A stretch of 64,000 nt of DNA, taken from NCBI RefSeq assembly GCF_900258045.1, contig NZ_OGVD01000004.1, forward strand, positions 186,001 to 250,000, given 5' to 3'. The DNA is from Sphingorhabdus sp. EL138. GTDB lineage: Bacteria; Pseudomonadota; Alphaproteobacteria; Sphingomonadales; Sphingomonadaceae. Under the pieces are notes generated by a model. It made no database searches. It saw only the letters and a program-made list of their open reading frames with translations, and had not been told where the DNA came from. The translations under genes and the position numbers were made by a program. This document shows, piece by piece, positions 2,438 through 18,447 of the stretch (positions are counted from its first letter, which is position 1; each line of letters starts with the position of its first letter).

Positions 2438-2561
2438 TCAACCATTGGTCGCAGCTGAAAAACCGGCTGGCGACAATTGTAGAGGATGAATAGTCCTGTT
2501 GGGTTTTGTTCATATTTCTCCCGTTATTTCTGACAATCAGACATAACGAAGGGAGTTTGAC

Positions 2562-2954: not shown

Positions 2955-3001
2955 ATGATCGGGCTGTGGCATTTGCTTGAGCCCGTACATGAAATGAAGA
3001 A

Positions 3002-3029: not shown

Positions 3030-3058
3030 CTTTCATTTGGGGGAAAGGGAAGGGGGAT

Positions 3059-3178: not shown

Positions 3179-3215
3179 GATGAAGTCCTTTGGGGTTTGA
3201 GAGCCGGTCGCCTGA

Positions 3216-3335
3216 TCAGATAATCAGGGACGTGGCATTTTGGGCGGCTGGACCGACGCTGGCGCTCATCATTACTGCTGCAGAGAATAGAGCGGCAAAG
3301 GCGGCGAGAACCTGGTTTTGAACGTTGGTGGTCAT
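3216..3335 (-). CDS. microprotein paralogue 2 of 3 (39 aa)
   Basis: A 39-residue ORF with ATG at 3335 and TGA at 3216-3218. AAAAGGA lies about 10 bases upstream. The protein starts MTTNVQNQVLAAFAALFSAA and ends in GPAAQNATSLII. It is very close to paralogue 1: the stretches NQVxAAFAALFSAAV and SASVGPA are shared almost exactly. The gap to paralogue 3 is 37 bases and to paralogue 1 is 32 bases, so the three genes probably share one transcript. A predicted signal or membrane helix makes up most of the protein. The function is unknown. Confidence 0.75.
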   Translation of the reverse strand: MTTNVQNQVLAAFAALFSAAVMMSASVGPAAQNATSLII

Positions 3336-3367
3336 GATGAATTTTCCTTTTGAATTCCGGTTAGAGA

Positions 3368-3490
3368 TTAAGCGATGAATGAAGCGGTGTTTTGAACGGC
3401 TGGGCCAACGCTGGCGCTGATCAGGACAGCTGCGGAGAACAGAGCGGCGAAAGCGGCAACAACTTGGTTTTGTATATTTACGTTCGACAT
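3368..3490 (-). CDS. microprotein paralogue 1 of 3 (40 aa)
   Basis: A 40-residue ORF with ATG at 3490 and TAA at 3368-3370. AGAAGGA lies 8 to 14 bases before the ATG. The same frame stays open up to 3694, but that extension has no ribosome site, is AT-rich and is not shared with the two paralogues, so 3490 is preferred. The protein begins MSNVNIQNQVVAAFAALFSA and ends in GPAVQNTASFIA. It is the first gene of the tandem set on the minus strand. The common core is an amphipathic start, an alanine/phenylalanine helix, then SASVGPA and a QNxxS tail. No function can be stated. Confidence 0.78.
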   Translation of the reverse strand: MSNVNIQNQVVAAFAALFSAAVLISASVGPAVQNTASFIA

Positions 3491-3840
3491 TTTAAATTCC
3501 TTCTGGGCTAAATTTGGTTTTTCGCGGTTGTGTTTGCGAAGATGTCCATAGCATTGCATAGGGCGTGCCAGTTTTGATAAACTTATATAATACAATAGGT
3601 TATGCTTATTTTTCATTATTAAGAGTTTTCTTGAAAACCAATAAATGGGAAAATAAGCCAATAAATGGTTTTCTCTTTTGGGAAATGTCACCAATCAGCC
3701 TGTTCAGGATCTTGCTGTTGTTGCAAGCACAGGAACGGTCCGGATTTACTCGTGTAAAACCGGAGGATATTCCCACAGGATGGGTTTAAGGCAGTTTGCA
3801 GGTTTCGCCTGGCGGCTGGTGCTATGAAACTGCGATTGCT
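3491..3840. other. AT-rich gene-free gap upstream of the microprotein cluster
   Basis: No convincing gene lies here. Bases about 3570-3680 are visibly AT-rich compared with the flanks and include the stretch TATATAATACAATA, which would suit a promoter for the minus-strand microproteins. The 11-mer CCAATAAATGG occurs twice, inside a GAAAACC/GGTTTTC inverted repeat (3633-3639 and 3667-3673). A 74-codon plus-strand frame (3565-3789) has no ribosome site and odd composition and is not called. Confidence 0.4.
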
Positions 3841-4617
3841 TTAGTAGGGCGCTGTTCCGCCGTCGACGCTCAGTGCTGCACCGGTAATCCCGGCACCAGC
3901 ATCAGAGGCAAGCAGCAATGCCATCGCAGCGACTTCCTCCACCGTGTTCGGTCGTTTAAGCGCGCTTTCTTGAGAAAACATGTCGATCATTTCCTCGAAT
4001 GTCATGCCGAGGCCTTCGGCAGTGGTCGGCCCGTTATCGAGAATGAGATCGGTCAGTACCAGGCCAGGACAGATAGAATTGACGGTAATGCCCATTGTGC
4101 CCACTTCCTGGGCCACCGCCTTGGTCATGCCGTTTATGCCGTGCTTGGCGATCGTATATGGCGCGAAAGTTGGCTTGCCCATCTTGCCTTCGGTCGAACT
4201 GATATTGATGACGCGACCGGATTGCTGAGCGATCATGGGCTTTAGCGCCCGGCGGGTTGCCCAGAATGTCGCGTAGATATTCCACTTCATCGCTTCATCA
4301 AAGGCCTCATCGGTCAGATCGACGAGCGGAGCAAGATCACCAGCACCGCCGGCATTGTTGACGAGAATATCGACCGTACCGAAATTTGCGACCGTCTGGT
4401 CCACAAAATCCTCAACTGACTCTTGCTGCATGACATCGCCAGCGATGAAAATGGCGCGATCACCGACGTTCAGTTCTTCGATAACCTTTGCGCCCTTTTC
4501 AGGATTACGGGCAAATAACGCGACATTTGCGCCCTCCGCCAGAAAGACCTCCGCTATGCCGCGTCCTATACCCGCAGTGCCGCCCGTAATAGCGGCAGTT
4601 TTGCCTTTCAGTTGCAT
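3841..4617 (-). CDS. SDR-family NAD(P)-dependent oxidoreductase
   Basis: A 258-residue classical short-chain dehydrogenase/reductase. The N-terminal Rossmann glycine motif TGGTAGIG is at about residues 11-18, the NNAG motif at about 87-90, and the catalytic Ser-Tyr-Lys triad follows in ISSTEG...YTIAKHG (about 140-160). The C-terminal SVDGGTAPY is typical of 3-oxoacyl-ACP reductase and BadH-like hydroxyacyl-CoA dehydrogenases. GDV in the cofactor region (IAGDV) fits the class. The likely reaction is reversible oxidation of a hydroxyl group on an acyl or alicyclic substrate; the sequence does not fix the substrate. It is cytosolic, monocistronic and transcribed away from the plus-strand gene at 4878. 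Confidence 0.9.
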   Translation of the reverse strand: MQLKGKTAAITGGTAGIGRGIAEVFLAEGANVALFARNPEKGAKVIEELNVGDRAIFIAGDVMQQESVEDFVDQTVANFGTVDILVNNAGGAGDLAPLVDLTDEAFDEAMKWNIYATFWATRRALKPMIAQQSGRVINISSTEGKMGKPTFAPYTIAKHGINGMTKAVAQEVGTMGITVNSICPGLVLTDLILDNGPTTAEGLGMTFEEMIDMFSQESALKRPNTVEEVAAMALLLASDAGAGITGAALSVDGGTAPY

Positions 4618-4877
4618 GACCTTCTCCCAAAATTTCTTGCCATCTAGTTATCGGTGGAAGGCGGTAGCAGCAATCATTCAAAAGGTTAGGAGCGAAAAAT
4701 AGGACACTCAAGACATTGGTAGATAAGCGAAACTTTTAATATGTTCATAAAAATCGCGTTGAATATGAACCTCAGATAAAACCAACATTCAGCAAGCGGT
4801 CAATCCACTTCACCTAGAACCAATCTCGTCGGGCATCAAACGAGTCGGATCACGACAATCCTTTTGGAGTAGAAGCA

Positions 4878-5306
4878 ATGATCAACAAGGTTTTAGGAAC
4901 ACTCGCCATCACCACCGCTGCTATTTCGGCGATGGCCTTTGCAACGCCCGCTGAAGCGCGTGGTGGTTATTATCAAGGCTATAACGACGGCTATTATCAG
5001 CATGTTGGTGATGACCGCCGCTATTATCGTCGTGGCGATTATTACCGGGATGACCGTTATTATGACCGCCGGGATCGTCGTGCTTATCGTGAAAAGCGTC
5101 GTTATTATCGCGACAAGCGTCGTTATCGCAATGATCGTCGTCGTTATCGCGGATGTGATCGCGGCACGGGCGGCACCATAATCGGTGCTATTGCTGGCGG
5201 ACTGCTGGGCAATGAAGTGGCTGGCCGCGGTAGCAAGACCGAAGGCACGATCATTGGCGGTGCAGTTGGTGCGCTTGCCGGTCGGGCGATTGATCGCAAC
5301 TGCTGA
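4878..5306 (+). CDS. exported glycine-zipper protein with a Tyr/Arg-rich linker
   Basis: A 142-residue protein with GGAGTAGAAGCA before ATG 4878. A signal peptide ends in TPAEA (cleavage near residue 27). Residues about 30-93 are almost entirely tyrosine, arginine and aspartate, in a loose RRYYR/DDRYYDRR pattern. Two glycine-zipper units follow (TIIGAIAGGLLGNEVAGRG and TIIGGAVGALAGRAIDRN), ending with Cys. It belongs to the glycine-zipper 2TM / 17-kDa surface antigen group, found at the cell envelope. The basic aromatic linker could bind peptidoglycan, nucleic acid or LPS; that is a guess. Two hairpins follow at 5333-5424. It differs from the acidic-linker protein at 2562-2954. Confidence 0.85.
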   Translation: MINKVLGTLAITTAAISAMAFATPAEARGGYYQGYNDGYYQHVGDDRRYYRRGDYYRDDRYYDRRDRRAYREKRRYYRDKRRYRNDRRRYRGCDRGTGGTIIGAIAGGLLGNEVAGRGSKTEGTIIGGAVGALAGRAIDRNC

Positions 5307-5332
5307 TGGGATCGCATGGAGATTGAAGATAA

Positions 5333-5365
5333 GCCCTCTGTATTCTGTCTTTGAATACAGAGGGC
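5333..5365. terminator. 13-bp perfect hairpin downstream of the Tyr/Arg-rich protein
   Basis: GCCCTCTGTATTC (5333-5345) pairs perfectly with 5353-5365 across a seven-base loop. No clear T tract follows, so it may be an mRNA 3'-end stabiliser working with the terminator at 5396. Confidence 0.5.
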
Positions 5366-5395
5366 CTATATTCCTCGCGTCGCGTATCGAGGAAA

Positions 5396-5431
5396 GGGGA
5401 CCGTGGTCGTAAGCTCCGGTCCCCGTTTCTT
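5396..5431 (+). terminator. Rho-independent terminator
   Basis: An eight-base-pair stem, GGGGACCG (5396-5403) with CGGTCCCC (5417-5424), is followed by GTTTCTTT. It lies just before the end of the convergent cytochrome operon (stop at 5451). Confidence 0.6.
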
Positions 5432-5450
5432 TGTCAGTCTATCCGATGTA

Positions 5451-8400
5451 TCACCGGCGCGCCAGCATTGGCGGTACAGGGCCGATCCAGTCCGATAAAT
5501 CAACCTCGTCCTTCACGAAATAGGGCTTGCCCTTGCTGTTGAGATAAAAGCGCTGCATTTCACTGCGGGTAAATGGCCGGGAGCCTAGCCGACCAAACAC
5601 GGCCATCTGTCCACCGGTTTCATCCACTGCCCGGTCACGATCCAGTCCTTTGGACAAGGCCAATGCGGGTTTGGGGGTACGGGCAAAGGCAATTAGTTCC
5701 GGCATCGGCGGCGGTGAAAAACCATAATAGTTCGGCTGGCTGTCTGGAGAAGTCAGCTGAATGACTTTCAGACCATTGCGGCCGTCGGCGACATAGGCAA
5801 ACAGAGTGGCATTGGTGGAACCGACAATGACGTCTTCTGCGTCATTCATCTGGCCGCCAAATGTTTCCTTGCGATAGATAACTGGTGCTTCCGGTTTGGT
5901 GATATTGGCAATCACCAAACCTTCGTCTTTTGCCGCGATGTAAGCATAGGTGCGGGCCAGATAGAGACGGCGTGCATTGTTGAGTGGGATTGTCCCGGAC
6001 TCTACCGGAACCGGCTTTTCCATATCTGTCACATTGAACAGCTTCACACCATCAGCATCGGTTACCCAAAGATAGCGGAACTGCAAGGCTGACGCCCGGG
6101 CATCTGTCATCGGCATGGTGATGACATGGCGGGGTTTCAACGGATCGTTGAGGTCAATGACAACCAGCCCACTCGCGGCGGTGATGTAGACATAATGACC
6201 GGCCAATGTGATATGCTTGGCGCCGTTCAAGACCCCGTCCGCATTCCAGGTAACGGCGCGCTTGAAGAAATTGTTGCGGAACTCGCCGTCGGCCAGCGTA
6301 TTGATGTCCACGAGAATTAAACCTTCTTCGCTGTCGGTAACAACGGCATAATTATAAATCGGATGGAACGCCTGTTCCTCATTAATCTCGCGGAGCTCGG
6401 CCGTGTTGCGTTCCGGTGCAACTGGCTGGTTGGTCGACAATGCCATGCAGGTCGCGTTTTTCGTGTCGACATGGGTGTCATGACCCAGGGAAGAGAAGGG
6501 GGCCTTGACGATCCGTTCGGAAAAACCCTTGTTGCCGATCGAGGCAACGTCATAGGCGCGGAACCCGCCTTTACCCTCTGCGACAAACATATATTCACCG
6601 CGCAGCTGCAAGCAGCGGACGCTGTCCCCGGTGCCCTGAACCACATTGGCAAATTCTTCCAGAGCTTTGGTCTCGCCAGACAGATTGGCATCGAGCCGCT
6701 CGCCGCGCACCCAGTTGATGAGTTCGCGCCCATTATCTTCCACATGCATCCGCCAATAATCGGGATACGCATATTTTTGCAGATAGGAACCGATGACTGC
6801 TTGGGGTTCATCCCATTCTGTCACACGTACCGCTTCAAAGCCCTTGTCCATGCCTACCCAGGCATGCAGGCCAACAAAGTTCACGAAGTTTGTACCCTGC
6901 AAAAGCAGCTGAGACATGATGGCATTATTGTCATTGGCTTCGCTCAAGTGACAATCGGAACATTGCTTGGTCTCGGTCTTGCGAACGGTGTGCGGGAAGT
7001 GTGGTGCAAAGGCTTGGCTGGAGAAACCGATGGCCGATATGGGCGGCTGCTGCACATAGATGCGTTCACGGTTGATATTGGTTGAGGAGAGCACCAGCGC
7101 CGAGGTTGACCGTACCGGTGCGATAATGCTCCCCTTGGTCGTCTGGTGACGGCCAAGCTGGAACATCTGATCACGGGCGACCTGCGGGTTATAGGTGGCG
7201 TAGTTACGTGTGGTGCCGCCTTCATATTTGTGGCTTTCCGTTTGCCAGTTGGCTTCAATCGGCAAATGGCAGCCGCCACAACTGGTCGTCCAGCTCAAGT
7301 GACAGGTGAAGCACACCATATTTTCATCTTTATGGGCCCGATCAGCAGCGGGTACGCCAGTACCAAAACTGTATTTCCCTGTCTCGGCGCCGGTCCTGGA
7401 CATCAGCTTGGCGCGTGCCGATTTCAGGTTAAAGTCAGGATGCGAACGGTCAACGCTGTCTTTGACCAGACTGACCCGCCAGCTGAGGTCTGGGTCCACG
7501 ATGGAACGCTGGATCAACACACGCTTGCCATTGGCATCCTGCATCCATTCAAAGCGGCGCTGACCATCCGCATTGCGCAGCAGGTTCAAGTTCTTGCCCT
7601 TCGGCCGCGCCGCCAGATTGGATGTCATCAATGTCGGATATTCATCGGCCGTACCATGGCAGTCTTTGCAGTTTATCTCCACCGCATTGGCGACCTCGCC
7701 ATAGATCAGACCATTGCCATGGCTGTCCTGGGCGAAATGACAATCCGCGCATTGCATGCCGACTTCGGCATGGATACTCATCATGTGGACGGACTTGCCA
7801 GGGTTGATCCCGGGTTCGACGAATTTTTCTTCGTCCTCGCGGCGGAATTTTTCAGGATCATCATTGTCGACAATATCGCCATCTTCGTCGAGCAGATTGC
7901 CATCGCGATCGCGTTTCAATATGGCGCGGAAATTCCAGCCATGACCGTGATAGTCAGCAAATTGTGTGTCCTTGGCTTCGCTGTTGAGATCATAGACATT
8001 GCGCAGGAAATCAAGCTCGCCCCAAAGACCTTTGGGTGAAGCGGCTTCTGGATTGCGGTCGAGGATCTTGCGCACTTCTTCGGCATCAGGATATTTCTGC
8101 TGTTTATAAGTTTTCTGATATTCCTCATCACTCATGCCCTCGGGCCGCGGCGTGGTATTGTTCGGACCGGGCCACATCAGCGGGGCATCGGACTCATAGT
8201 CCCACATCGTATAGCCGAGGAAGCTGTTCAGGAAGATATTGGGCTGGTGCATGTGACAGTTCATGCACTGGGCAGTTGGAATGGCGCGGGTGAAGGCATG
8301 CTGGATAGGATGTCCTTTTTCCCGTTTCGCCGGGTCTATGTCGGTGCTGTGATCATTGCCATGTCCGTCATCATGGCCGCCCTTCTTGCTATAGGAAGCG

Positions 8401-9578
8401 TCATAGGTCCCAAATTTGCCGACGCGGTGCTCACCCTCTTTCAGGTTACGGATCGTTGGATCTTTGGTTTGCGTCTGTCCGTCGCGGCCATATTTGGCCC
8501 AGATCAGGCTGTGGCGCGGCTCGCGGTCATTGGCATAGACCACATGGCAACTGGCGCAGCCGGACTGGCGATAGTCACCGGGCTGGTCATTAGTGCCCAT
8601 GAACCACGTGAACGGATCGTTCAGCCGGGTCTTGTGAATATTCAGAGCCGGAATGGCAACGCGCAGCCCTGTGCCGGGACCGCGGTTGGATTGTTTCAGG
8701 TCCGGACGGCCCGGTTCCTCCAGTCGCTGAATGATTCCGCCAATGTTTGGCAAGCCGATTTCAGGGAATTGCGTATTGATATTGCGTCCGCCGCGTTCAA
8801 ACACGCGGAAAACATCACCGGGCGGTATCGTGTGCCAAGTGGGCAGGGGATAGAGAATGGGCAACGCGCCACGTTTCTTCTGTTCGTCCGTTACCGTGCC
8901 ATGTGGATTTCCTGGGGACTTGATCGTCGCGGGCAGGCCTTTGCGGGTATAGGCTTCACCGAAGACATAATTTTTAAACGGCACGATACCGTTATTATAA
9001 GCCGCGCCGCCCCAGAGCATAGCTCCGGTTGCCATCAGGGATCGCTCAGACGCTTCGATAATTTCCATATGGCAAGCACCACAGGATTCCCGCGCGACGC
9101 GGTAATCTGACGGGTTGACGAAGCGGACAAATTCAGGGGATTCCTTATTCAGCAATGTGTAGCTGCGCTTCGGATTGGCGGACGAAGGCCAGTGCCAGCT
9201 CTCGGGATATTTGGGGAGGACATGCGCTTTTTTCAGCGCATGCATATATTGCGGGCTTTTCTTGCCCCATGCATTGTCGCCGGTAACGCTAGCGTCGCCG
9301 CCGTGACAGTCGACGCAGCCGAGCACCACAGCAGGCGTCTCGTGCATCGTTTTCTGGTCGCTGTCGGTATGGCAGGAAACACAGCCGGTGCTTTTTGTGT
9401 TTGCAGCATCCCATGTCTGGTTCTGCGGCGCTGGTGGTGTGAACGTATAGTCAATCTTCTGAGGTTTCTCTTTTCCTGCGGCAAGTAGCGCTGGTGTTCC
9501 TGCAACGCTCAGTCCAGCGATGCCGAGTCCAGCGATGAAGAAACGCTTATATCGGGAGAGAAGATTGAGAGACCGCAT
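5451..9578 (-). CDS. decahaem c-type cytochrome fused to an LVIVD-type beta-propeller
   Basis: A 1375-residue exported protein. The start chosen is ATG 9578, one base after the upstream stop; the frame extends to 9683 but only within the previous gene. A Sec signal (RYKRFF then a hydrophobic helix, ending LLAAG) is followed by ten CXXCH haem motifs between residue 66 (CVSCH) and about 875 (CSDCH): CVSCH, CVDCH, CGACH, CASCH, CMNCH, CADCH, CKDCH, CFTCH, CGGCH, CSDCH. A His/Asp-rich stretch (GGHDDGHGNDHSTD) and an acidic DRDGN/DEDGD loop resembling calcium sites lie between haems. Residues about 985-1310 form repeated blades with LVIVD-like motifs (GLILVDINTL, GLVVIDLNDP, GVKLFNVTD, GLVIANITKP, GLKVIQLTSP). 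It is the last gene of a four-gene operon with a beta-barrel. Electron transfer at or across the outer membrane is inferred. The redox partner is unknown. Confidence 0.9.
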   Translation of the reverse strand: MRSLNLLSRYKRFFIAGLGIAGLSVAGTPALLAAGKEKPQKIDYTFTPPAPQNQTWDAANTKSTGCVSCHTDSDQKTMHETPAVVLGCVDCHGGDASVTGDNAWGKKSPQYMHALKKAHVLPKYPESWHWPSSANPKRSYTLLNKESPEFVRFVNPSDYRVARESCGACHMEIIEASERSLMATGAMLWGGAAYNNGIVPFKNYVFGEAYTRKGLPATIKSPGNPHGTVTDEQKKRGALPILYPLPTWHTIPPGDVFRVFERGGRNINTQFPEIGLPNIGGIIQRLEEPGRPDLKQSNRGPGTGLRVAIPALNIHKTRLNDPFTWFMGTNDQPGDYRQSGCASCHVVYANDREPRHSLIWAKYGRDGQTQTKDPTIRNLKEGEHRVGKFGTYDASYSKKGGHDDGHGNDHSTDIDPAKREKGHPIQHAFTRAIPTAQCMNCHMHQPNIFLNSFLGYTMWDYESDAPLMWPGPNNTTPRPEGMSDEEYQKTYKQQKYPDAEEVRKILDRNPEAASPKGLWGELDFLRNVYDLNSEAKDTQFADYHGHGWNFRAILKRDRDGNLLDEDGDIVDNDDPEKFRREDEEKFVEPGINPGKSVHMMSIHAEVGMQCADCHFAQDSHGNGLIYGEVANAVEINCKDCHGTADEYPTLMTSNLAARPKGKNLNLLRNADGQRRFEWMQDANGKRVLIQRSIVDPDLSWRVSLVKDSVDRSHPDFNLKSARAKLMSRTGAETGKYSFGTGVPAADRAHKDENMVCFTCHLSWTTSCGGCHLPIEANWQTESHKYEGGTTRNYATYNPQVARDQMFQLGRHQTTKGSIIAPVRSTSALVLSSTNINRERIYVQQPPISAIGFSSQAFAPHFPHTVRKTETKQCSDCHLSEANDNNAIMSQLLLQGTNFVNFVGLHAWVGMDKGFEAVRVTEWDEPQAVIGSYLQKYAYPDYWRMHVEDNGRELINWVRGERLDANLSGETKALEEFANVVQGTGDSVRCLQLRGEYMFVAEGKGGFRAYDVASIGNKGFSERIVKAPFSSLGHDTHVDTKNATCMALSTNQPVAPERNTAELREINEEQAFHPIYNYAVVTDSEEGLILVDINTLADGEFRNNFFKRAVTWNADGVLNGAKHITLAGHYVYITAASGLVVIDLNDPLKPRHVITMPMTDARASALQFRYLWVTDADGVKLFNVTDMEKPVPVESGTIPLNNARRLYLARTYAYIAAKDEGLVIANITKPEAPVIYRKETFGGQMNDAEDVIVGSTNATLFAYVADGRNGLKVIQLTSPDSQPNYYGFSPPPMPELIAFARTPKPALALSKGLDRDRAVDETGGQMAVFGRLGSRPFTRSEMQRFYLNSKGKPYFVKDEVDLSDWIGPVPPMLARR

Positions 9579-9579
9579 A

Positions 9580-11688
9580 TCAGAAAGCCAGTATCGCGTT
9601 GAAGAGAATGGAATAATGGAAATCGCGCTTATCGGTTTGATCGAACAAGTCTTCAAAGCCTTTGCCGGGGAGCAGCGCCGCACCCGATAAGCGGAAAACT
9701 AAGTTCTGGTTGGCGTTGGGACGATAAATGGCTGCCGCTGACAAATCCCAGCCGATATCTTTAGGTATCGAGCCCTCGACACGCAGCGCTTCAAGGCTTT
9801 CCGTCTTGTGGAACCAAAGATGATTGGCATTGGCCGACAAACGAAAATCCGGCGTCAGGTCGGCATCAACGCCAACGCCCGCCAAAATCGTACCGGGGTT
9901 GTTGAAATTGCTCTGCCCCTGCTCCTTGGAAGACCGCAAGGAATTGAGGATACCGTTCCGGCCATTGATGCTGATTGCACGCCCGCCGCCTGCAAACGGG
10001 ATGGTCTGCCGGATCCAGTAACTGGTATCAGCACCGGCAAAAATCGGGTTTTCAAAAATGGCATCAAACCCGGCTTCCGTATTATTATAGGGATTGCCGT
10101 CTCCACTGGCGAACAGGCCGGATGCCCGAAAGCGTAGGAAGTCGACATCATAGCTTGCTTCCGCCGCCGCGAAATAGGCAGCGATTTTGGCCGGTTCGCT
10201 GGTGAATATGCTGTTGCGATCTTCGCCGAAAGCACCATAAATCTGCCCGGTCACGTTAATTCGTCCGATCCGGCCATCCACCGCATAGCCGGGATAAACA
10301 ACATCGTAGGCGCGGCCGCGCAAGTCGCCGATCAGGGCAGGGCGAACCGGAAAACCATTGTCGTCAATCTCGATATCGTTCTTTTCGCGGTTCATATTAT
10401 AGGTGACGCTGAACTGGCTGGTCAGGCCGACAAAAGGTAAATCCTGACGATAGAGATTGGCGAAGAAAATATAGCTTTCGCGCGGCGTTTGGGTGATATC
10501 ATTGAGGCCGCTGTTCGTGTCTTTTTCCAGCTGCACGAAGGCGCCAAGATTATATTGGATGCGGTTATTGTCACGCGTGCCGAACAGGCGGAAACCGAGT
10601 TGATTATCCTGAAACAGGAAGCCGCGGAAATCGGCCTGCATCGGCTGGATACCGATACGGAAGCTGTCAAAGTCATAACGCGCGGAAGTGTTACGGATAT
10701 GATAGTCGAAAAACGCTTCCTGCACGCCGACAAACCAGTCGGTGCGGTTGGAGGTTTTTGAAGGTTCGACAAACAGCACGCGGCGTTCGGGAACATTCAC
10801 ATGGTTGATCTGCGTAGCAAGCGTCAGGCGGTACTCCACATCAGGTGGTTTGTAGGCAGTTGAGCCTTTGATCAGCGCGAAACCAGTGATGAAGGTTTGG
10901 GCGTAGACTTCGGAACCGGAGCGGCCGAAAACATCAATGCTATTGTCCCGCTCGGTTGTTTGCACACCGACCGGGATTGGGAAGCTGCGCGGCTCGATGA
11001 CGGTGTCCGATATCGCGTTGACGACAAAGAACCAGTCATCGCCCTTCAGAAAGGACGGCTTTTTGTCCGCCGGGATCGGCTTGTCGCCTTTCAATACATT
11101 TTGCGCATATGGGTTGGACGTATTGCTGCAATTATTCTTCAGTGCGCCGAATACTTTATAGATCGACTGATCACCGCCTTTTTGCGGGCATAGGGTTTGC
11201 AATATCCGCCAGCGGTCGGGGACGGGAAATTCATCGGTCGGAAATGCTTCTGGCGGCGGCGCACTAACTGCGCCGGGATTATTCTGGGTAATGCGGTCTG
11301 GCAGTTCCTTGGGCACGCCGGGACGACGGCGACCATCGATTAACGCCTCATCGGCTTCCAAGCCGTCAAAATCCATTTCCAATTGTTCTGGCTGGGCGGC
11401 CTCGGGTTCTACGATTGCGGGATCTGTAGCTGGTGGTTCAGCCGTTTCGGCTGCGGCTTCTTCTTCGGGATCGGGTCCGCCGACGGCCATCAAGCCAGCG
11501 CCTGCATCTATTTCAGCAAGGTCAAAATCCGAATTCTCGACACGTATCCAATCAAACTGCTCGCTTGCCAGCAAAGCTGTGAGCGAGCTTTCCATTTCTT
11601 CAATGGAGAGGCGCTGAGCTTCCATCTGTTCGGCTTGACCCGACATCACCGTCATAATCGGCAGGAAAGAGGAGGATAATGCAGGCAC
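9580..11688 (-). CDS. outer-membrane beta-barrel protein of the cytochrome operon
   Basis: A 702-residue protein reading from GTG 11688 (ATG codons at residues 12 and 15 are alternatives). The start lies 5 bases after the upstream stop. A weak signal-like N-terminus is followed by an acidic/proline/alanine-rich segment (about residues 70-145), then a Cys-containing region (TLCPQKGG and NNCSN). The rest has many alternating amphipathic strands, such as YRLTLATQINHV, FRLFGTRDN and YNLGAFVQLE. It ends in SILFNAILAF with the terminal phenylalanine used as an outer-membrane barrel signal. I see no TonB plug and no haem motif. Its place between a haem-binding lipoprotein and a decahaem cytochrome suggests a porin-like sheath for a trans-outer-membrane electron conduit. 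MtrB homology is not evident by eye. Confidence 0.8.
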   Translation of the reverse strand: MPALSSSFLPIMTVMSGQAEQMEAQRLSIEEMESSLTALLASEQFDWIRVENSDFDLAEIDAGAGLMAVGGPDPEEEAAAETAEPPATDPAIVEPEAAQPEQLEMDFDGLEADEALIDGRRRPGVPKELPDRITQNNPGAVSAPPPEAFPTDEFPVPDRWRILQTLCPQKGGDQSIYKVFGALKNNCSNTSNPYAQNVLKGDKPIPADKKPSFLKGDDWFFVVNAISDTVIEPRSFPIPVGVQTTERDNSIDVFGRSGSEVYAQTFITGFALIKGSTAYKPPDVEYRLTLATQINHVNVPERRVLFVEPSKTSNRTDWFVGVQEAFFDYHIRNTSARYDFDSFRIGIQPMQADFRGFLFQDNQLGFRLFGTRDNNRIQYNLGAFVQLEKDTNSGLNDITQTPRESYIFFANLYRQDLPFVGLTSQFSVTYNMNREKNDIEIDDNGFPVRPALIGDLRGRAYDVVYPGYAVDGRIGRINVTGQIYGAFGEDRNSIFTSEPAKIAAYFAAAEASYDVDFLRFRASGLFASGDGNPYNNTEAGFDAIFENPIFAGADTSYWIRQTIPFAGGGRAISINGRNGILNSLRSSKEQGQSNFNNPGTILAGVGVDADLTPDFRLSANANHLWFHKTESLEALRVEGSIPKDIGWDLSAAAIYRPNANQNLVFRLSGAALLPGKGFEDLFDQTDKRDFHYSILFNAILAF

Positions 11689-11693
11689 TTTCT

Positions 11694-13694
11694 TTACAGT
11701 CCCTCGCAGACATTTTGGTCATCGGTGTCGAGAAACGGCGCAAACGGACAGTTTACATAGCGTAAACGGACCTGTGCATCGCCAAGATCAACCACGACAT
11801 TGTCGGCGCGAATGGCTTTTGGCGCATTGCCAATGCCACCTACCCGCAGCCCGGCATTGTGCAGGCCAAGAAAGCTGATCATATCATCCTGGTCGATGCC
11901 ATCTCCGGATACGCCGAGGCCGCCGACAAGCTGGTCACCACGATAGATCGGAACGCTGCCCGGGAAAATCTGGATGCCATTTTCAAGACGGTTCTGCCCT
12001 GCCGCGGCATCCGGCGTGTTGGTGCAGCGTTCCCCTGTGTCGGTTGCCGAAACGCCGGAAATGAAATTGAGATGGCCAGCAATATTACCGATGGTGAGCG
12101 CGACTTGCAGTCCGGTTGCAAATGGATTGAACTGGTCAATCGGTCGCGACAAGGGGCCATTGGGCCGCCCCAACTCGCCATCAGGGAAATAGGGGCGGGC
12201 CAGGTTGCCGCCGGACCGGTCGGCAAAGGCCACGGTTCCGGTGAGGGCGTTAGGATCATTTAAAAACGTACGCACGCGTCCAACAAAGGCAGCGACATCA
12301 CCATCCGGATTACCCAAAAGGTCGGCCGCAGCAACACTGTTCGAAAAGAAGGACGCCGTTCGCGCTTTTTGTAACGATACATCGGTGCCGAAAATCGGTG
12401 CGTCGGGAGAACGGACAATGCCCAAAATCTCGCCATGAGTATCAACAATGGAAATTGAAACTTGTGCGCGGCTGTCCAATGGTTGCCGGATTTGCGCGCG
12501 AGCACGGCTCATGACGATAAAGGACTCTTCCAAAATTGCCCGGGTTTCTGCGGCCGTGAGCGGGGTTGCAACACTGGCACCGTCGGTTCCGGCTCGAATT
12601 GGAAAGCGATTGGTGCCGGTGCCGTCGGTCAAAACAAAGGCATCGCGGTTCTGAAACTCTGCGGCCGTTGATGCGCGGATGCCGGAACTTTCTGTGCCAT
12701 AAGCCGAACCAGCGACGATGGTTCCATCGCTATAGCCAGTCACCGGGACCAGATTACCAGATGTACCGTTAATTGCGGCAAAATTACTTTGCAGCGGTGA
12801 GAGATCATCAACCACCATGTCACTGAAACGCAGCGACGTTCCGTCAACGGATATCCGGTTTGCAGTTATCGAAGCGGAGGGAGCAAAGCCCTGTATACCG
12901 GCCAGTGCTATTGCCTCTTCATCGTCGACATCGGTGTCGAGAATATTTGGGTCAAAGCCATAATCGCCATCGCCCATCACACCAATGGCACCGACCACGA
13001 CACCGTTTTTGTAAAGTGGCAGGCCGCCCGGGTCCGCGGCAAGACCGATAGGAGAGCGTTTCGGGCCAATCAGCGCGCTGACTCCTCCGCCCGCACTGAA
13101 GCGCTGGTTCAGGTCGGAGCAGGGAAGTTGGCTGAATTGAACGCCAAACAACGGGCCACTTTCAAGGCCTGCGGTCGTTGGTGCTGGCGGAAAATGTTCC
13201 TGTACAATCTGGCTTGCTGTTCGGGTAGAAAAGGCATTTCCGGAACTCGACAGATAAGCGCCCGTGACGGCCTTGGCAATGGCCGCGGCTTCGGCCGGGA
13301 AAACCACACCCTGTGCGTCCATAGGTGTGGGATTGGGGCCTGTGGACGTCGATATGCTGGTAGTAGCCGTTGCGGCCGCGCCGTTCATACGAAAAACGGC
13401 CAGTACGTTGCCGACCCGATCGGTAACGGCGATAACCGAAGGCAGGTTGCGCGCAGTTGCTTCTCCGACGGCTTGCGCAATGATGGTTTGCACATCCGTA
13501 ACGCTAAGCGATTCTTGGGCAGGAGGCGTAAATGCTCCACCGTTGCCATCAATTGGTGTTGGCGTTGGCGTGGGGGCAGGAGCTGGTGCAGGGGCTGGGT
13601 CTCCGCCAAAATCATTGCTGCCACCACCGCCACCGCAAGAGGTCAGGATCAAGGCAGCTGCCGAAATTGCAGTAGTGAAACGGATGTTCCGCAT
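11694..13694 (-). CDS. lipoprotein with two HbpS/GlcG-like (haem-degrading family) domains
   Basis: A 666-residue lipoprotein. The lipobox LTSC gives Cys20 as the lipidated residue, followed by a Gly-rich and a PAPAPAPTPTPTP linker (about residues 37-50). Two domains of the GlcG/HbpS type (PF03928) are seen: one starting near residue 64 (VQTIIAQAVGEATARN, then VIAVTDRVGNVLAVFR) and one near residue 385 (ARAILEESF-like, then VSISIVDTHGEILGIVR). HbpS proteins bind haem or metal and occur in redox sensing. Here the protein is envelope-anchored and sits in a cytochrome operon. ATG 13694 shares one base with the preceding TAA (TAATG), so translation is coupled. Outer-membrane location is inferred from the lack of an Asp at +2 (it is Gly). 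Confidence 0.85.
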   Translation of the reverse strand: MRNIRFTTAISAAALILTSCGGGGGSNDFGGDPAPAPAPAPTPTPTPIDGNGGAFTPPAQESLSVTDVQTIIAQAVGEATARNLPSVIAVTDRVGNVLAVFRMNGAAATATTSISTSTGPNPTPMDAQGVVFPAEAAAIAKAVTGAYLSSSGNAFSTRTASQIVQEHFPPAPTTAGLESGPLFGVQFSQLPCSDLNQRFSAGGGVSALIGPKRSPIGLAADPGGLPLYKNGVVVGAIGVMGDGDYGFDPNILDTDVDDEEAIALAGIQGFAPSASITANRISVDGTSLRFSDMVVDDLSPLQSNFAAINGTSGNLVPVTGYSDGTIVAGSAYGTESSGIRASTAAEFQNRDAFVLTDGTGTNRFPIRAGTDGASVATPLTAAETRAILEESFIVMSRARAQIRQPLDSRAQVSISIVDTHGEILGIVRSPDAPIFGTDVSLQKARTASFFSNSVAAADLLGNPDGDVAAFVGRVRTFLNDPNALTGTVAFADRSGGNLARPYFPDGELGRPNGPLSRPIDQFNPFATGLQVALTIGNIAGHLNFISGVSATDTGERCTNTPDAAAGQNRLENGIQIFPGSVPIYRGDQLVGGLGVSGDGIDQDDMISFLGLHNAGLRVGGIGNAPKAIRADNVVVDLGDAQVRLRYVNCPFAPFLDTDDQNVCEGL

Positions 13695-15100
13695 TATCGT
13701 AATGCCCTTATCGTTCTCACCGCACTGCCGAGCGCACGGCGGAATTGCAGCGGTTTATAGCTATTGGGATCATCGACAGCCTTATAGGCCACGTTGATCT
13801 GGCCGCGCAGGCTGGAGGCAGCAGACTCGCTGACCTGACCACCGTTCACCAATCCATTGAGCAACGTATCGATTGCCATCACGGCTTGTACGCTGCCTTC
13901 ATAATCGGTGAAGCGCGGCGAGATTGCCTGTCCGGCGATGGTTTCCATGATCTGGAAGGTCTGATTTCGGCCAAAGCTGGCGCGAGAGAAGCGATCCGCC
14001 AAAGCCCGCGCGGTCTGACGCAGTCTGGCAGCAGCCTGGACAGCCGGTCCGCGGCCTTGGGTCATCGCCGCGTGGAAAGCCTTGGATCGGGATTCGAACT
14101 GCTCCGCCATATCCGGAGCTGCGACTTTAATGGCCGCACTCAGCATGATCATGTTTTCATCATTATAAGGCGGCATGCCCTCTGGAATGGGGCGACCGGG
14201 ATTGTTGACGGACGTCGGACGTGCCGATGCTTCGTCATAGATGCGGCGGTGGCAGCTGTGACAATCGTAGAAATAGAATTCGGGGAAAATGCCTTCTTGT
14301 GCCAAGGCAGGTTTTGAAAAGAGGCTCAGTGAACGTTCTAATGCCATCGATTGTCCGACGGCCCAAAAACGCACTGCGTTAGTCTTTCCCTTGCGCCGGA
14401 TGTAATCGACATCTTCGTCATGATGCTGCTGCAGGGTGGAGAAGAGGTCGAGTTCAAAGGAAATGCGGGGATGCCCCGCGGCCATGATCCGGTGATCGAC
14501 AAACTGACCGCTTTTTGCGCTGCCAAAGTGACAATCAAGGCAATTGTCAGCGCGAACTTTGGGGTTGTCCAGCGGTTTCAATCCGAGCGAAACATTGCGG
14601 GCATGGTTGGCGCCAACGGCATAATGGGCCGAAAGCCAGCCGGAAGATGGGCCATGGCAGGCTTCACAGCCAACACCGTCGCTAAGCTGGAAGCGGGGGC
14701 CTTTTTTTGCTGCTGGTGTACTGTGACATCCAAGGCATTGCCGGGACGAGGATGCATCTTTTATCCCAAGCCGCTTGGCCATCGCAATGCTGCGGGGTTC
14801 GCGTAGCACACGAAAGGCGCGGCTATGGGCACCGCCCGGGGTGGACTCTTCCTGCCAGCGCATCAATTCGTCCTGCCGCACCACTTCGCCATCGGCTTCC
14901 TGGCGCCCATGGCATGTTGTGCCGCCGCAAGATGCGACACCCATGTGGGTCCCGCTCGCCAAATCCTGGGCAGCTTCAACCGGTGCCGGTGTTGCGATAG
15001 AAGATATGAACAGAGCTGCGCCAGCAAGCGCAAAACAGAATAGACTAGCGGCCAGCACGGACCAGCTACGTCTCCACGACAGATTCTTCCCCATTTGCAT
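13694..15100 (-). CDS. five-haem c-type cytochrome (cytochrome c554-like)
   Basis: A 468-residue protein and first gene of the operon. The N-terminus has basic residues and a long hydrophobic helix (about 15-36), either a signal peptide or an anchor. Haem sites: an atypical CGGTTCH (CX4CH, Cys58-His64), then CLGCH, CEACH, CLDCH and CHSCH. The pattern DGVGCEACHGP and the order of sites resemble the cytochrome c554/c-prime family of multihaem proteins. A helical, haem-free C-terminal region follows (about residues 310-468). The expected role is to pass electrons from the inner membrane or periplasm to the decahaem partner. ATG 15100 has a second in-frame ATG two codons later. An inverted repeat sits just upstream at 15111-15128. 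Confidence 0.88.
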   Translation of the reverse strand: MQMGKNLSWRRSWSVLAASLFCFALAGAALFISSIATPAPVEAAQDLASGTHMGVASCGGTTCHGRQEADGEVVRQDELMRWQEESTPGGAHSRAFRVLREPRSIAMAKRLGIKDASSSRQCLGCHSTPAAKKGPRFQLSDGVGCEACHGPSSGWLSAHYAVGANHARNVSLGLKPLDNPKVRADNCLDCHFGSAKSGQFVDHRIMAAGHPRISFELDLFSTLQQHHDEDVDYIRRKGKTNAVRFWAVGQSMALERSLSLFSKPALAQEGIFPEFYFYDCHSCHRRIYDEASARPTSVNNPGRPIPEGMPPYNDENMIMLSAAIKVAAPDMAEQFESRSKAFHAAMTQGRGPAVQAAARLRQTARALADRFSRASFGRNQTFQIMETIAGQAISPRFTDYEGSVQAVMAIDTLLNGLVNGGQVSESAASSLRGQINVAYKAVDDPNSYKPLQFRRALGSAVRTIRALR

Positions 15101-15110
15101 CGTTGCTTTT

Positions 15111-15128
15111 CCTGATCCGGAGATCAGG
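15111..15128. promoter_or_regulatory. inverted repeat upstream of the cytochrome operon
   Basis: CCTGATC (15111-15117) and GATCAGG (15122-15128) are perfect inverted arms around CGGA, 11 bases before the ATG at 15100. The spacing does not fit an FNR box (TTGAT-N4-ATCAA). It could be a leader hairpin or an operator for an unidentified repressor. Confidence 0.35.
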
Positions 15129-15241
15129 CCCCTCTGTAAGCTCGACGCGACCCAAGTCGTTAACTATGTAATACGCCCTCTATTATGCTTCATTGAAACC
15201 TCAATGCAACGGTAAAAAGCCTCGAATATGGCGGTATTTCT

Positions 15242-15255
15242 ATGACTTGCATCAC
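15242..15255. promoter_or_regulatory. weak CRP/FNR-superfamily-like site
   Basis: ATGA-CTTGCA-TCAC matches GTGA-N6-TCAC at seven of eight positions, about 148 bases upstream of the cytochrome operon start. It is short and imperfect, and is listed mainly because two exact versions occur elsewhere in the window. Confidence 0.25.
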
Positions 15256-15352
15256 TTTTTTTGCTTTACCCACCATACAAACGTTGCCGATTTACCACTT
15301 TTGGTACTTTGATTGCCAGCCCGTCAATTCTGCTGCGATCTGATTCGATAGA

Positions 15353-16789
15353 CTAGACTTTCCGCCGGATGACCAGATTGCGAATTTCCGTCATGTCCTC
15401 CATTGCGAACCTGATACCTTCCCGTCCAAGCCCGCTATCCTTGACACCGCCATAAGGCATATTGTCGACGCGATAGGATGATACGTCATTGATCACCACA
15501 CCACCGACATCAAGCCGGTCCCAGGCATCTAGAGTCTTGAACAGATCACGGGTAAAGATACCTGCCTGCAGCCCGAATTTGCTGTCGTTCACTTCGTCCA
15601 GTGCTGCATTGAAATCGCTGAATTTTGAGAGCAGTGCCAATGGTCCAAAAGCTTCTTCGCGATTGGCCGCAGCATTGCGATCTACATTTTCCAGCAGAGT
15701 TGCCTCTAGCATATTGCCGGTTCGGTTGCCGCCGCAAAGTAACGTAGCACCGCCAGCAATGGCTTCATCAATCCAGCCGTGCAAACGTTTGGCTTCGCCT
15801 TCGGAAATCATCGGACCGATGAAGGTGTCACGGTCTTTGGGATCACCGGCAATAAGGGTTTTGGTTCTAGCGACAAGCATGTCCTTGAAAGTGTTGTAGA
15901 CAGATTCATGGATTATGATCCGCTGCACACCGATGCAGCTTTGACCCGACTGATAGAACGCGCCGAAAATGATCCGCTCAAGGGCATCATCTAAGTCAGC
16001 ATCATGATCGACAATGACCGCAGCATTGCCGCCCAGTTCTAGGATGACGGGTTTCTTGCCCGCCTTAGCTTTGAGATCCCAGCCCACACCAGGAGAGCCG
16101 GTAAAGGACAGCAGCTTCAGGCGTTCATCCACTGTGAACAGGTCTGCGCCGTCACGGCTAGCCGGCAAGATCGAAAAAGCGCCTTTGGGTAAATCGGTCT
16201 CGGCGAGAACCTCACCCATGATGATGGCACCCAGCGGCGTTTTTGATGCCGGCTTCATGACAAAAGGGCAGCCCACAGCAATAGCTGGTGCAATTTTATG
16301 TGCCGCCAAATTCAGCGGAAAGTTAAAAGGTGAAATAAAGCTGCACGGTCCAATCGGCACGCGCTTCCACATACCTTGATAGCCTTTGGCGCGCTCGGAA
16401 ATGTCCAGCGGCTGGACTTCCCCATAGTTACGGACCGCCTCCTCGGCGGCTATCCGGAATGTATCGATCAGCCGACCGACTTCCCCTTCGGCATCCTTGA
16501 TGGGTTTGCCTGCTTCAACACAAAGCGAATAAGCAAGTTCATCAAACCGTTCCTGAAAACGGGTGACGCAGTGCTGCAGCACATTTTGCCGTTCATAGCT
16601 CGCCATGCGCGCCATGGGTTCGGCGGCTTTGACTGCTCCGGCAATGGCTTCTTCAATAACATCCGGTGTCGCCAGCGCTGTCCGGAAAGCGACCTCGTTG
16701 GTAAACTTGTCCGTGACTTCCAGATCGGTATTCGGCTGGGCGGCTACGTTATTGAGATAAAGCGGATAAACGTCTTTGAGTTTTGTCAT
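15353..16789 (-). CDS. NAD(P)-dependent aldehyde dehydrogenase
   Basis: A 478-residue member of the aldehyde dehydrogenase superfamily, cytosolic. Catalytic Cys lies in YQSGQSCIGVQR (about residue 288) and the general-base Glu in VILELGGN (about residue 254). The FTGSPGVG cofactor loop and the PFNFPLNLAAHK / MKPASKTPLG signatures are present. Oxidation of an aldehyde to an acid with NAD(P)+ is expected. The substrate is not defined by sequence. The subgroup looks like the glyceraldehyde-3-phosphate (GapN)/lactaldehyde-type branch. The upstream ThDP enzyme ends 11 bases before this start, so the two are probably co-transcribed and metabolically linked. Confidence 0.92.
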   Translation of the reverse strand: MTKLKDVYPLYLNNVAAQPNTDLEVTDKFTNEVAFRTALATPDVIEEAIAGAVKAAEPMARMASYERQNVLQHCVTRFQERFDELAYSLCVEAGKPIKDAEGEVGRLIDTFRIAAEEAVRNYGEVQPLDISERAKGYQGMWKRVPIGPCSFISPFNFPLNLAAHKIAPAIAVGCPFVMKPASKTPLGAIIMGEVLAETDLPKGAFSILPASRDGADLFTVDERLKLLSFTGSPGVGWDLKAKAGKKPVILELGGNAAVIVDHDADLDDALERIIFGAFYQSGQSCIGVQRIIIHESVYNTFKDMLVARTKTLIAGDPKDRDTFIGPMISEGEAKRLHGWIDEAIAGGATLLCGGNRTGNMLEATLLENVDRNAAANREEAFGPLALLSKFSDFNAALDEVNDSKFGLQAGIFTRDLFKTLDAWDRLDVGGVVINDVSSYRVDNMPYGGVKDSGLGREGIRFAMEDMTEIRNLVIRRKV

Positions 16790-16800
16790 GGGCTATCCTC

Positions 16801-18447
16801 TTAAATCTTCGCGCTGAGTTCCTTGATCTCATTGTTGAGGATACGGTCATTATCCGAATAGTCCACCGGACAATCGATCAGATGCACGCCTTCGCTGTTC
16901 AGGCATTTGTCGATCGTTTCCTGCAAATTTTTCGCGCTGGTGATCCGGTGACCATGGGCGCCATAGCTTTCGGCATATTTAACAAAATCCGGATTGTCAT
17001 AGGTCAGGCCCCAATCCTTGAAGCCCATATTGGCCTGCTTCCAGCGAATCATACCATAGCTGCTGTCATTCAGAATCAGCACGGTGATATTGAGCTTCAG
17101 CCGAACCGCTGTTTCCATCTCCTGACTGTTCATCATAAAGCCGCCATCGCCGCAAATTGCCATTACTTTGCGATCAGGATAGACCATCGCCGATGCCATG
17201 GCCGACGGCAGGCCGGCGCCCATGGTTGCCAGAGCGTTATCAAGCAACACGGTGTTCGCCTGACGAGCTTTGTAGTTGCGCGCAAACCAGATTTTATAAA
17301 CGCCATTGTCGAGGCAGATTATACCATCGGCAGGCATTTGTTCGCGAATGACCTTCACAAGATGCGGTGGATAAATCGGGCAACGCATGTCGTCGTCCAT
17401 CGTTGCCGTATGCTCTTCTTCAGCCGCCCGTGCTTTGTACATGTGATCAAAATTCCAAGAGCCGGAAGGAACAATATCTTCCTTCATCTGCCAAATGGCG
17501 TTGCCAATGTCGCCAATAACTTCGATTTGTGGGAAATAGACCGGGTCAACTTCCGCTGTGTTCATTGAGACGTGAATAACTTCGGTGCCGCCGTCTTTCA
17601 TGAAGAAAGGCGGTTTCTCGATTACGTCATGGCCAACATTGATGATCAGGTCGGCGGATTCAATCGCGCTATGCACGAAATCATTTGCGGACAAAGCGGC
17701 ACAGCCCATAAATTCCTTATTTGTTTCATCGACCACGCCTTTACCCAATTGCGTTGTGACAAAGGGAATGCCGGTTTTCTCGATAAACTGGGTCAGCATC
17801 CGGCCGGTGGTGGTGCGGTTGGCTCCGCCGCCAATAACGAGGATGGGAGACTTAGCGCTCTCAATCTTTTTGGTTGCTGCGCGCACCGCTTTGGCTTCGG
17901 CAATCGGACGGCGCGAGAGGCTGGGTTTGATCGGAACCGAATCGGTCTGCTCGTCCGCGACATCTTCTGGAAACTCGATATGGGACGCGCCGGGTTTTTC
18001 TTCCTCGGCCAAACGGATCGCTTCACGCACACGGCTAGGGATATTGTCGGCCGAGGCAAGTTGATGTGTGAACTTTGTAATCGGCCCCATCATGTCGACG
18101 ACATCGAGAATCTGGAAACGGCCTTGCTTGGATTTCTTGATCGGTTTCTGGCCGGTTACCATCAGGATCGGCATGCCGCCAAGCTGTGCATAGGCGGCTG
18201 CGGTAACCAGATTGGTCGCACCGGGGCCGAGAGTTGCCATGCAAACCCCGGTTTTACCTGTATGCCGAGCATAGGTAGCAGCCATGAAGCCAGCGCCTTG
18301 TTCATGCCGGGTCAGGATCAATTCAATTTTCTTGGAGCGGGACAGGCTGTCCAGCATGTCGAGATTTTCTTCGCCGGGAACGCCGAAAAGATATTCTACG
18401 CCTTCATTTTCAAGACATTGGACGAATAAATCAGATGCTTTGGTCAT
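16801..18447 (-). CDS. acetolactate-synthase-like ThDP-dependent enzyme
   Basis: A 548-residue ThDP enzyme with the full acetolactate synthase large-subunit architecture: N-terminal PYR domain with GVPGEENLDML (activating Glu near residue 51), central Rossmann-like domain (PILVIGGGANRT), and C-terminal PP domain with GDGGFMMNSQEMETA and NDSSYGMIRWKQ for Mg-ThDP. The family condenses pyruvate with a 2-oxo acid or decarboxylates oxo acids. No regulatory small subunit (IlvN) is adjacent, so a catabolic acetolactate synthase or another 2-oxo-acid carboligase/decarboxylase is possible. The partner aldehyde dehydrogenase 11 bases downstream would suit a reaction releasing an aldehyde. Confidence 0.88.
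   Translation of the reverse strand: MTKASDLFVQCLENEGVEYLFGVPGEENLDMLDSLSRSKKIELILTRHEQGAGFMAATYARHTGKTGVCMATLGPGATNLVTAAAYAQLGGMPILMVTGQKPIKKSKQGRFQILDVVDMMGPITKFTHQLASADNIPSRVREAIRLAEEEKPGASHIEFPEDVADEQTDSVPIKPSLSRRPIAEAKAVRAATKKIESAKSPILVIGGGANRTTTGRMLTQFIEKTGIPFVTTQLGKGVVDETNKEFMGCAALSANDFVHSAIESADLIINVGHDVIEKPPFFMKDGGTEVIHVSMNTAEVDPVYFPQIEVIGDIGNAIWQMKEDIVPSGSWNFDHMYKARAAEEEHTATMDDDMRCPIYPPHLVKVIREQMPADGIICLDNGVYKIWFARNYKARQANTVLLDNALATMGAGLPSAMASAMVYPDRKVMAICGDGGFMMNSQEMETAVRLKLNITVLILNDSSYGMIRWKQANMGFKDWGLTYDNPDFVKYAESYGAHGHRITSAKNLQETIDKCLNSEGVHLIDCPVDYSDNDRILNNEIKELSAKI

Follow-up and report, generated by a model that had tools for sequence, protein, structure and literature searches.

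A conserved barrel, HbpS lipoprotein and ten-haem propeller cytochrome module of Pseudomonadota, a candidate outer-membrane half of an electron-transfer chain across the cell envelope

The export of electrons across the outer membrane has been studied mainly in metal respirers; in the Mtr system, CymA serves at the inner membrane. Two further putative porin-cytochrome clusters, PCC3 and PCC4, were described by He et al. (2017; PMC5566968, cited here from the accessible part of its text), who hypothesised a link between their inner-membrane protein (IMP) and the quinone pool and listed Alpha-, Beta- and Gammaproteobacteria, an Erythrobacter included, as hosts of PCC3. Here we analyse a four-gene cluster in a stretch of 64,000 nucleotides from Sphingorhabdus sp. 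EL138 (contig NZ_OGVD01000004.1, positions 186,001 to 250,000; hereafter the window, with positions counted from its first base), encoding a ten-haem cytochrome with a β-propeller, an outer-membrane β-barrel, an HbpS-type lipoprotein and a pentahaem cytochrome. Barrel, lipoprotein and ten-haem protein are a conserved module, and we favour, with moderate confidence, the reading that the four genes make up the outer-membrane half of an electron-transfer chain spanning the envelope, the inner half of which is encoded elsewhere in the genome.

All four genes lie on the minus strand. The pentahaem gene (13694-15100, 468 residues) overlaps by one base, at 13694, with the gene of the HbpS lipoprotein (11694-13694, 666 residues), which is followed after a 5-base gap by the barrel gene (9580-11688, 702 residues, the barrel part covering approximately residues 220-702). 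The longest open reading frame (ORF) of the ten-haem protein begins at GTG 9683 and overlaps the barrel gene; the internal ATG 9578, one base past the barrel stop, is most likely the real start, and it gives a protein of 1375 residues (5451-9578) and a 1-base gap. With this start the spacing reported in the initial annotation is reproduced, and its total of 15 predicted haems stands as well, with ten CXXCH motifs in the one cytochrome and four CXXCH plus one CX4CH in the other. The HbpS domain, the C-terminal Phe of the barrel and the propeller on the decahaem protein were likewise borne out: PF03928 (HbpS-like) scores 84.1 bits against a cut-off of 25 with four matched stretches, which we read as two HbpS/GlcG-like domains in tandem, and the LVIVD repeat reaches 44.9 bits against a Pfam cut-off of 20.2 in the C-terminal part of the ten-haem protein, a homologue of which is modelled with a propeller.

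The unity of the module is apparent from its distribution. Of 199 genomes of the family, 72 encode the barrel, and it is these 72 that also encode the ten-haem protein. The barrel accompanies the ten-haem gene in 78 of 80 named loci; the latter are the best 80 of at least 593 relatives among 594 candidate stretches of GTDB contigs, being the best matches to a gammaproteobacterial query and not a random sample. HbpS, barrel and ten-haem genes follow one another in this order on one strand in all 69 named loci that hold the three. ORFs in the scripted scans were taken from stop to stop, and signal peptides, lipoboxes and helices were judged by eye or with crude patterns.

The ten-haem protein, the proposed terminal cytochrome at the outer membrane, carries exactly ten CXXCH motifs in 40/40 fetched relatives and in all 80 named loci, so that the motifs are not a matter of chance. 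Its sequence identity is 54-97% across the relatives compared and 54-62% between the window and the 80 named loci. Pfam detects cytochrome c3/c7-type haem stretches, and the alignment reveals at least 13 invariant non-motif His residues in the haem part, with which bis-His ligation would be possible. A signal peptide without a lipobox was recognised by eye. Neither single nor profile searches matched the protein to sequences of solved structures. A structure model was made on a homologue (L144), without the first 22 residues of the aligned stretch; its propeller is well modelled, and the 50 listed Foldseek matches look propeller-type by their titles. Five weak ten-haem matches (L127-L131, 764-857 residues, 10-12 haems), with best aligned stretches of 48-185 residues in four and 385 in L129, were taken as a different family and not as module members. 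That other family has a haem-bearing stretch in common with the ten-haem protein, and in L128 (2792-6680) its member adjoins a cytochrome judged NapC-like by eye.

The pentahaem cytochrome, a proposed periplasmic carrier, is matched by Pfam Cytochrome_C554 (40.6 bits) and has cytochrome c554 as its nearest solved chain, while its C-terminal part is devoid of haem motifs. The fifth haem depends on the CX4CH motif at residue 58; among 59 relatives from the 80 named loci, 57 retain it together with the four CXXCH. The protein is much less conserved than the ten-haem one, with 29-37% identity to the window in 58 of 59 matches. In one locus (L107:12570-13984) the gene is broken over two frames, possibly by a frameshift or an assembly error. 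The HbpS protein carries the lipobox LTSC (by eye), and a lipobox-like site is present in 45 of 63 relatives; in 44 of the 63 the Cys is followed by three small residues, a leader that we take to be associated with surface lipoproteins. Its nearest solved chains are EfgA, a PduO-like adenosyltransferase and a further HbpS-like chain. In one sphingomonad locus (L099:3288-10462) about 2.6 kb lie between the HbpS and barrel ORFs, unlike the other family loci mapped.

For the barrel itself, Pfam and NCBIfam gave nothing up to E = 1, and neither single nor profile searches found a match among sequences of solved structures. In an AlphaFold2 model (54 sequences, predicted TM score 0.75) the barrel has 18 long strands, of which numbers 13 and 14 are linked by a conserved 72-residue loop of lower model confidence; the N-terminal stretch is poorly modelled. 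The best solved Foldseek match is AlgE (E = 1.5e-16, TM score by target 0.66), followed by OprD/Occ porins; MtrB is absent from the 50 listed matches, and MtrB_PioB (PF11854) matches neither the barrel nor anything else in the whole genome (G000). MtrB has 26 strands, and by a simple barrel formula the free lumen width is about 24 Å for 18 strands versus about 39 Å for 26. From this width, an MtrA-like protein would not be expected to fit the modelled lumen, and a thin haem-bearing segment might. In the window the N-terminus of the barrel protein (11620-11688, minus strand) does not contain a signal peptide that is clear by eye, and several relatives from other families have a typical one.

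Besides the module, three further genes recur on the same strand in the 80 named loci: a reductase of about 830 residues (62/80), an IMP of about 290 residues (60/80) and an FHA-domain decahaem cytochrome (63/80). Many loci are cut by contig ends; where the upstream flank suffices, which is the only flank for which these counts are adjusted, HbpS is present in 62/64, the FHA-decahaem in 61/63, the IMP in 60/62 and the reductase in 57/60. The initial annotation had noted the lack of an MtrA-size decahaem, a statement that does not extend to the genome, where the FHA-decahaem has this size and lies together with reductase and IMP at C1:1593-1598 kb, about 1.4 Mb from the window (C1:186-250 kb). 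All six genes follow the order reductase, IMP, FHA-decahaem, HbpS, barrel, ten-haem in 53 of the 57 loci holding them; in the four exceptions, which are betaproteobacterial (L194, L202, L206, L210), the reductase is placed after the pentahaem gene. The pentahaem gene comes last in 34 of 42 loci with all seven genes. A complete example on one strand, with genes mostly overlapping or abutting, is found in Parahaliea mediterranea (L140), where reductase (873-3359), IMP (3359-4237), FHA-decahaem (4153-5997), HbpS (5994-8018), barrel (7954-9936), ten-haem (9947-13741) and pentahaem (13738-15039) genes are followed by genes for a PP2C phosphatase (15036-16100) and a double-FHA protein (16116-17189). 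Such PP2C and double-FHA genes stand beside the module in 26/80 and 22/80 named loci.

The co-occurrence also holds across separate loci. Strong FHA-decahaem matches (E <= 1e-78) were found in 71 of the 72 module genomes of the family, the one miss being a 67%-complete genome, and among the remaining 127 family genomes only four gave weak matches (E 6.9e-12 to 2.7e-4). In 35 of these 71 genomes the FHA-decahaem gene lies less than 10 kb from the ten-haem gene, and in 36 it is farther away or on another contig; physical linkage alone is therefore not enough to account for the co-occurrence.

The reductase combines a pyridine-nucleotide-disulphide-oxidoreductase-type FAD domain (Pyr_redox), two cyclic nucleotide-binding domains, a Fer4 domain and four Fe-S cysteine groups. 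Its only CxxC pairs in the eight members compared are the four Fe-S ones, and it therefore lacks the redox disulphide of thioredoxin reductases; a GxGxxA...NRR stretch in five of the eight presumably indicates a preference for NADPH. The IMP comprises five hydrophobic helices (by eye), two WX3HX13H motifs in 60/60 and SGxxG in 59/60; W77-H81-H95, W250-H254-H268 and S118-G119-G122 are invariant in 16 aligned rows, the window's genome included. No match to Pfam FRD (PF01794) and only a sub-threshold cytochrome b561 match were obtained for the IMP, and five weak matches of its profile to the PDB (E 0.075 and above) were judged to be chance. The FHA-decahaem consists of an FHA-like N-terminal domain, a hydrophobic segment that looks membrane-spanning by eye and the haem part; TIGR03508, the model for MtrA/DmsE-type decahaems (cut-off 192.2), scores 36.1 bits for the P. 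mediterranea protein and 19.3 bits for the window pentahaem. In another genus, two genomes encode reductase and IMP in one ORF, of 1120 (L243:6844-10203) or 1125 residues (L246:3046-6420), which argues for joint action of the two proteins. Both fused frames adjoin a nine-CXXCH cytochrome, with an FHA domain found in L243, and both genomes are without the ten-haem protein.

The module is not a sphingomonad peculiarity, as the initial annotation might have suggested, and is spread over Pseudomonadota. A class search in 385 genomes gave 35 ten-haem matches, 29 strong (E <= 1e-68) and six weak, and a phylum search in 398 genomes gave 15 profile matches at 1e-10, 11 of them full length. Records of the best 80 loci are from Alpha-, Beta- and Gammaproteobacteria or unspecified Proteobacteria/Pseudomonadota, and hosts include members of Sphingobium, Sphingopyxis, Steroidobacter, Haliea, Colwellia and Duganella. 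In a quick, midpoint-rooted tree of 101 ten-haem proteins with some weak forks, the 21 sphingomonad rows split off with a support of 100 and the branching broadly follows taxonomy, suggesting an old module that has mostly been inherited. Plasmid records gave 15 matches: 13 are complete copies from Sphingobium (12) and Sphingopyxis (1), annotated as hypothetical or multiheme c-type cytochrome, and the other two are propeller-only matches from Gloeothece.

In the chain that we propose, NAD(P)H would be oxidised in the cytoplasm by the thioredoxin-reductase-like FAD domain, and electrons would pass via four [4Fe-4S] clusters of the reductase and two b-type haems of the five-helix IMP to the membrane-anchored FHA-decahaem. 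The pentahaem cytochrome (13694-15100) would carry them across the periplasm to the ten-haem propeller protein (5451-9578). The 18-strand barrel and the HbpS lipoprotein would keep this protein at the outer membrane, where an extracellular substrate, or one let in through the barrel, would be reduced. Flavin, Fe-S clusters, b-haems and 25 c-haems would thereby line the way from the cytoplasm to the outer membrane, and the flow may be regulated by the cyclic-nucleotide domains of the reductase and by the FHA/PP2C genes beside some copies. Gene content, motifs, gene order, the second locus, co-occurrence and the modelled strand number are observed; cofactor loading, electron direction, protein contacts, the location of the ten-haem protein and the substrate are what we infer from them. 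Electrons probably flow outward, as potentials and membrane polarity would favour. To this extent the porin-cytochrome conduit of the initial annotation holds up: barrel and cytochromes form a conserved unit, and the genome encodes what an electron path leading to it from the cytoplasm would need. An MtrB-like barrel with 20 or more strands is not supported.

Against the proposal, an 18-strand AlgE-like barrel leaves the crossing of the outer membrane without an explanation, and several further observations point the same way. A lipobox-like site is absent in 77 of 80 ten-haem relatives, so that the protein may be periplasmic, and the haem part of its homologue model is poor (mean pLDDT, the predicted local distance difference test, 60 overall) and offers no basis for haem spacing. 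Barrel and ten-haem gene lie on different contigs in one of the 72 family genomes (G016), a 100%-complete genome (G710) has all genes up to the barrel at a contig end with no ten-haem match, and the flanks of two loci (L187, L196) are without reductase, IMP and FHA-decahaem. Two genomes (G579 and G604, 98% complete) possess reductase, IMP and FHA-decahaem and no ten-haem propeller protein, so that the inner half can also work with different partners.

Two features, the width of the barrel and the lack of a lipobox in the ten-haem protein, speak for a periplasmic use of the chain. In this reading the barrel would be a selective channel for a small substrate (an oxyanion, a metal or a small oxidant), which the ten-haem protein would reduce in the periplasm; the inner half would still supply the electrons, and none would cross the outer membrane. 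The AlgE/OprD-like fold would suit such a channel, and the best NCBIfam match of the ten-haem protein is ExtM of the ext operon for selenite/tellurite, followed by ExtO and ExtN; loss of the porin ExtI alters selenite and tellurite conversion in Geobacter and not Fe(III) citrate reduction (PMC5877670, accessible text). The ExtM match, however, reaches only 66.8 bits against a cut-off of 800 with a best stretch of 50 residues, the propellers listed by Foldseek include the surface lipoproteins BtuG2 and BT1954 besides AztD, and neither the HbpS lipoprotein nor the propeller has a counterpart in the ext gene list as given in that paper. We regard this explanation as rather unlikely, albeit the strongest competitor, and lean towards a crossing via a complex of barrel, ten-haem protein and HbpS lipoprotein, because of the surface-type leader of the last and the conservation of the unit. 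An Mtr-like conduit, with a haem protein inside a wide barrel handing electrons to a surface cytochrome, appears highly improbable. Barrel and multihaem cytochromes do form a conserved unit, an MtrA-size decahaem is encoded in the genome, and the ten-haem protein narrowly passes the Pfam model of MtrC/MtrF domain II/IV (PF22113, Mtrc-MtrF_II-IV; 31.3 bits versus 30). This model is not specific, since FHA-type cytochromes score above its cut-off too (31.7 and 35.1 bits), and against the conduit stand the narrow lumen, too small for a haem protein of MtrA size, and the missing MtrB_PioB match. The FHA-decahaem is unlikely to enter the barrel because of its membrane segment and FHA-like domain. 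The cytochromes are, on the other hand, not found without the barrel as a rule, which would have spoken against the conduit reading.

Electron uptake would reverse the direction: a donor such as Fe(II) or Mn(II) would be oxidised at the cell surface, and its electrons would be passed inward to quinone or NAD(P)+. It was hypothesised for PCC3 and PCC4, the latter of which shares the IMP motifs and an Fe-S gene before the IMP (PMC5566968, accessible text). One locus (L141) derives from a biocathode sample, judging by its record title. Inward flow to NAD(P)+ would nevertheless be energetically uphill with a thioredoxin-reductase-type flavoprotein at the cytoplasmic end, and many named hosts are aerobic heterotrophs that are not known to oxidise metals; we consider uptake improbable. 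Outward flow over the outer membrane remains our preferred reading. In its fullest form, which we put forward only tentatively, it describes a so far unnamed NADPH-driven export machine across both membranes in hundreds of Pseudomonadota species, with a flavin/Fe-S/cytochrome b entry resembling ferric reductase/NADPH oxidase, cyclic-nucleotide gating and 25 c-type haems, in which the 18-strand barrel, HbpS lipoprotein and propeller decahaem cross the outer membrane in a manner unlike MtrB.

Should the chain do what its composition suggests, a regulated path from NAD(P)H to the outer membrane that can bypass the quinone pool would exist in a broader range of bacteria, where it might serve iron acquisition, the reduction of metals or oxyanions, or redox balance. 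The module ties together two separate loci of the window's genome. It also suggests a cytoplasmic partner for the type of IMP that was assigned to the quinone pool in the accessible text of He et al. (2017; PMC5566968).

Upstream of the cluster in the window, genes for an aldehyde dehydrogenase, an acetolactate-synthase-like thiamine pyrophosphate enzyme (PRK08322 above cut-off) and a D-2-hydroxyacid dehydrogenase occupy 15353-19592 on the minus strand. The aldehyde dehydrogenase and acetolactate-synthase-like genes were weighed as module partners and set aside: an aldehyde dehydrogenase is near the module in 11/20 sphingomonad loci and in 0/20 stretches of other alphaproteobacterial families, with one further case in another family (L126). 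A very long ORF of 2766 residues spans 21083-29383 (minus strand), and a small secreted-looking, Tyr/Arg-rich protein with a glycine-rich end is encoded on the opposite strand just downstream of the ten-haem gene (4878-5306, plus strand).

Compared with described systems, the cluster shares with MtrCAB, PioAB and MtoAB the combination of a barrel and multihaem cytochromes in one unit. The barrel here is of another family and strand number, the ten-haem protein has no lipobox, and the inner half is made of a flavoprotein and a di-haem-b-type protein. The extHIJKLMNOPQS cluster for selenite/tellurite in Geobacter likewise has an outer-membrane porin, cytochromes with 12, 10, 5 and 4 haems and a membrane cytochrome b, whereas its gene list, in the text accessible, is without an HbpS lipoprotein, a propeller, an FHA domain and an NAD(P)H reductase, and ExtI is predicted to have 12 segments (PMC5877670). 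Rieske ExtO and rhodanese ExtH were not among the conserved neighbours annotated here, the annotation covering part of the neighbours. PCC3 resembles the present system in its porin, its proposed extracellular and periplasmic multihaem cytochromes and an IMP of about 300 residues with the same motifs; it differs in that its cytochromes contain low-complexity repeats and have 34 and 21 haems as medians, with one haem per 22-39 residues, against 10 haems in 1375 residues and, over all cytochromes, 10, 10 and 4(+1) haems here, and in porins with up to 42 predicted segments versus 18 modelled strands (PMC5566968, accessible text). A Leptothrix cytochrome-IMP cluster whose porin has 24 segments is also mentioned there, and the supplementary Table 6 of that paper may include the present cluster. 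No such cluster is named in the accessible text of the MHCscan paper (PMC11475568), supplementary lists not covered, and the undecahaem cluster of 'Ca. Tenderia' was dismissed as a relative, as the main text of PMC5371394 in the part accessible gives no FHA, NHL, uetJ or porin and no link was found. In the open-access literature searched, supplementary files not covered, we found no description or name for a cluster of such make-up.

Eukaryotic ferric reductases and NADPH oxidases move electrons across the membrane, from NADPH to FAD and on through two b-haems carried by HX13H helices. The inner-membrane step proposed here is alike in function only, and c-type haems would extend it over a second membrane. 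The comparison of the IMP motifs with these enzymes was made in PMC5566968; differences are the missing Pfam FRD match of the IMP, the added Fe-S clusters and c-type haems, and the separate genes in most loci. PCC4, as described in the accessible text of the same paper, is with PCC3 the closest known system, having a porin, several periplasmic multihaem cytochromes, an IMP with two WX3HX13H and SGxxG motifs and, in its Subgroup II, an Fe-S (pfam13247) gene before the IMP. Fer4_11 (pfam13247) is likewise found in the reductase before the IMP, both in another locus (L186) and in the window's own genome. A PCC4-like cluster encountered in our searches (L244:2779-8495; tetrahaem, cyclic-nucleotide/Fe-S protein, IMP and decahaem) is distantly alike to the present system in all four proteins; a 481-residue ORF without a Pfam match lies upstream of it. 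PCC4 differs in that its cytochromes have 4, 5 and 10 haems versus 4(+1), 10 and 10 here, and in that an FAD/NAD(P) domain, an FHA domain, an HbpS lipoprotein and a propeller are not mentioned in its description, to the extent accessible (PMC5566968). The present system, with PCC4 compared by description, is thus of the porin-cytochrome kind and kin of PCC4 in its inner half, and is set apart from Mtr, PCC3, PCC4 and Ext.

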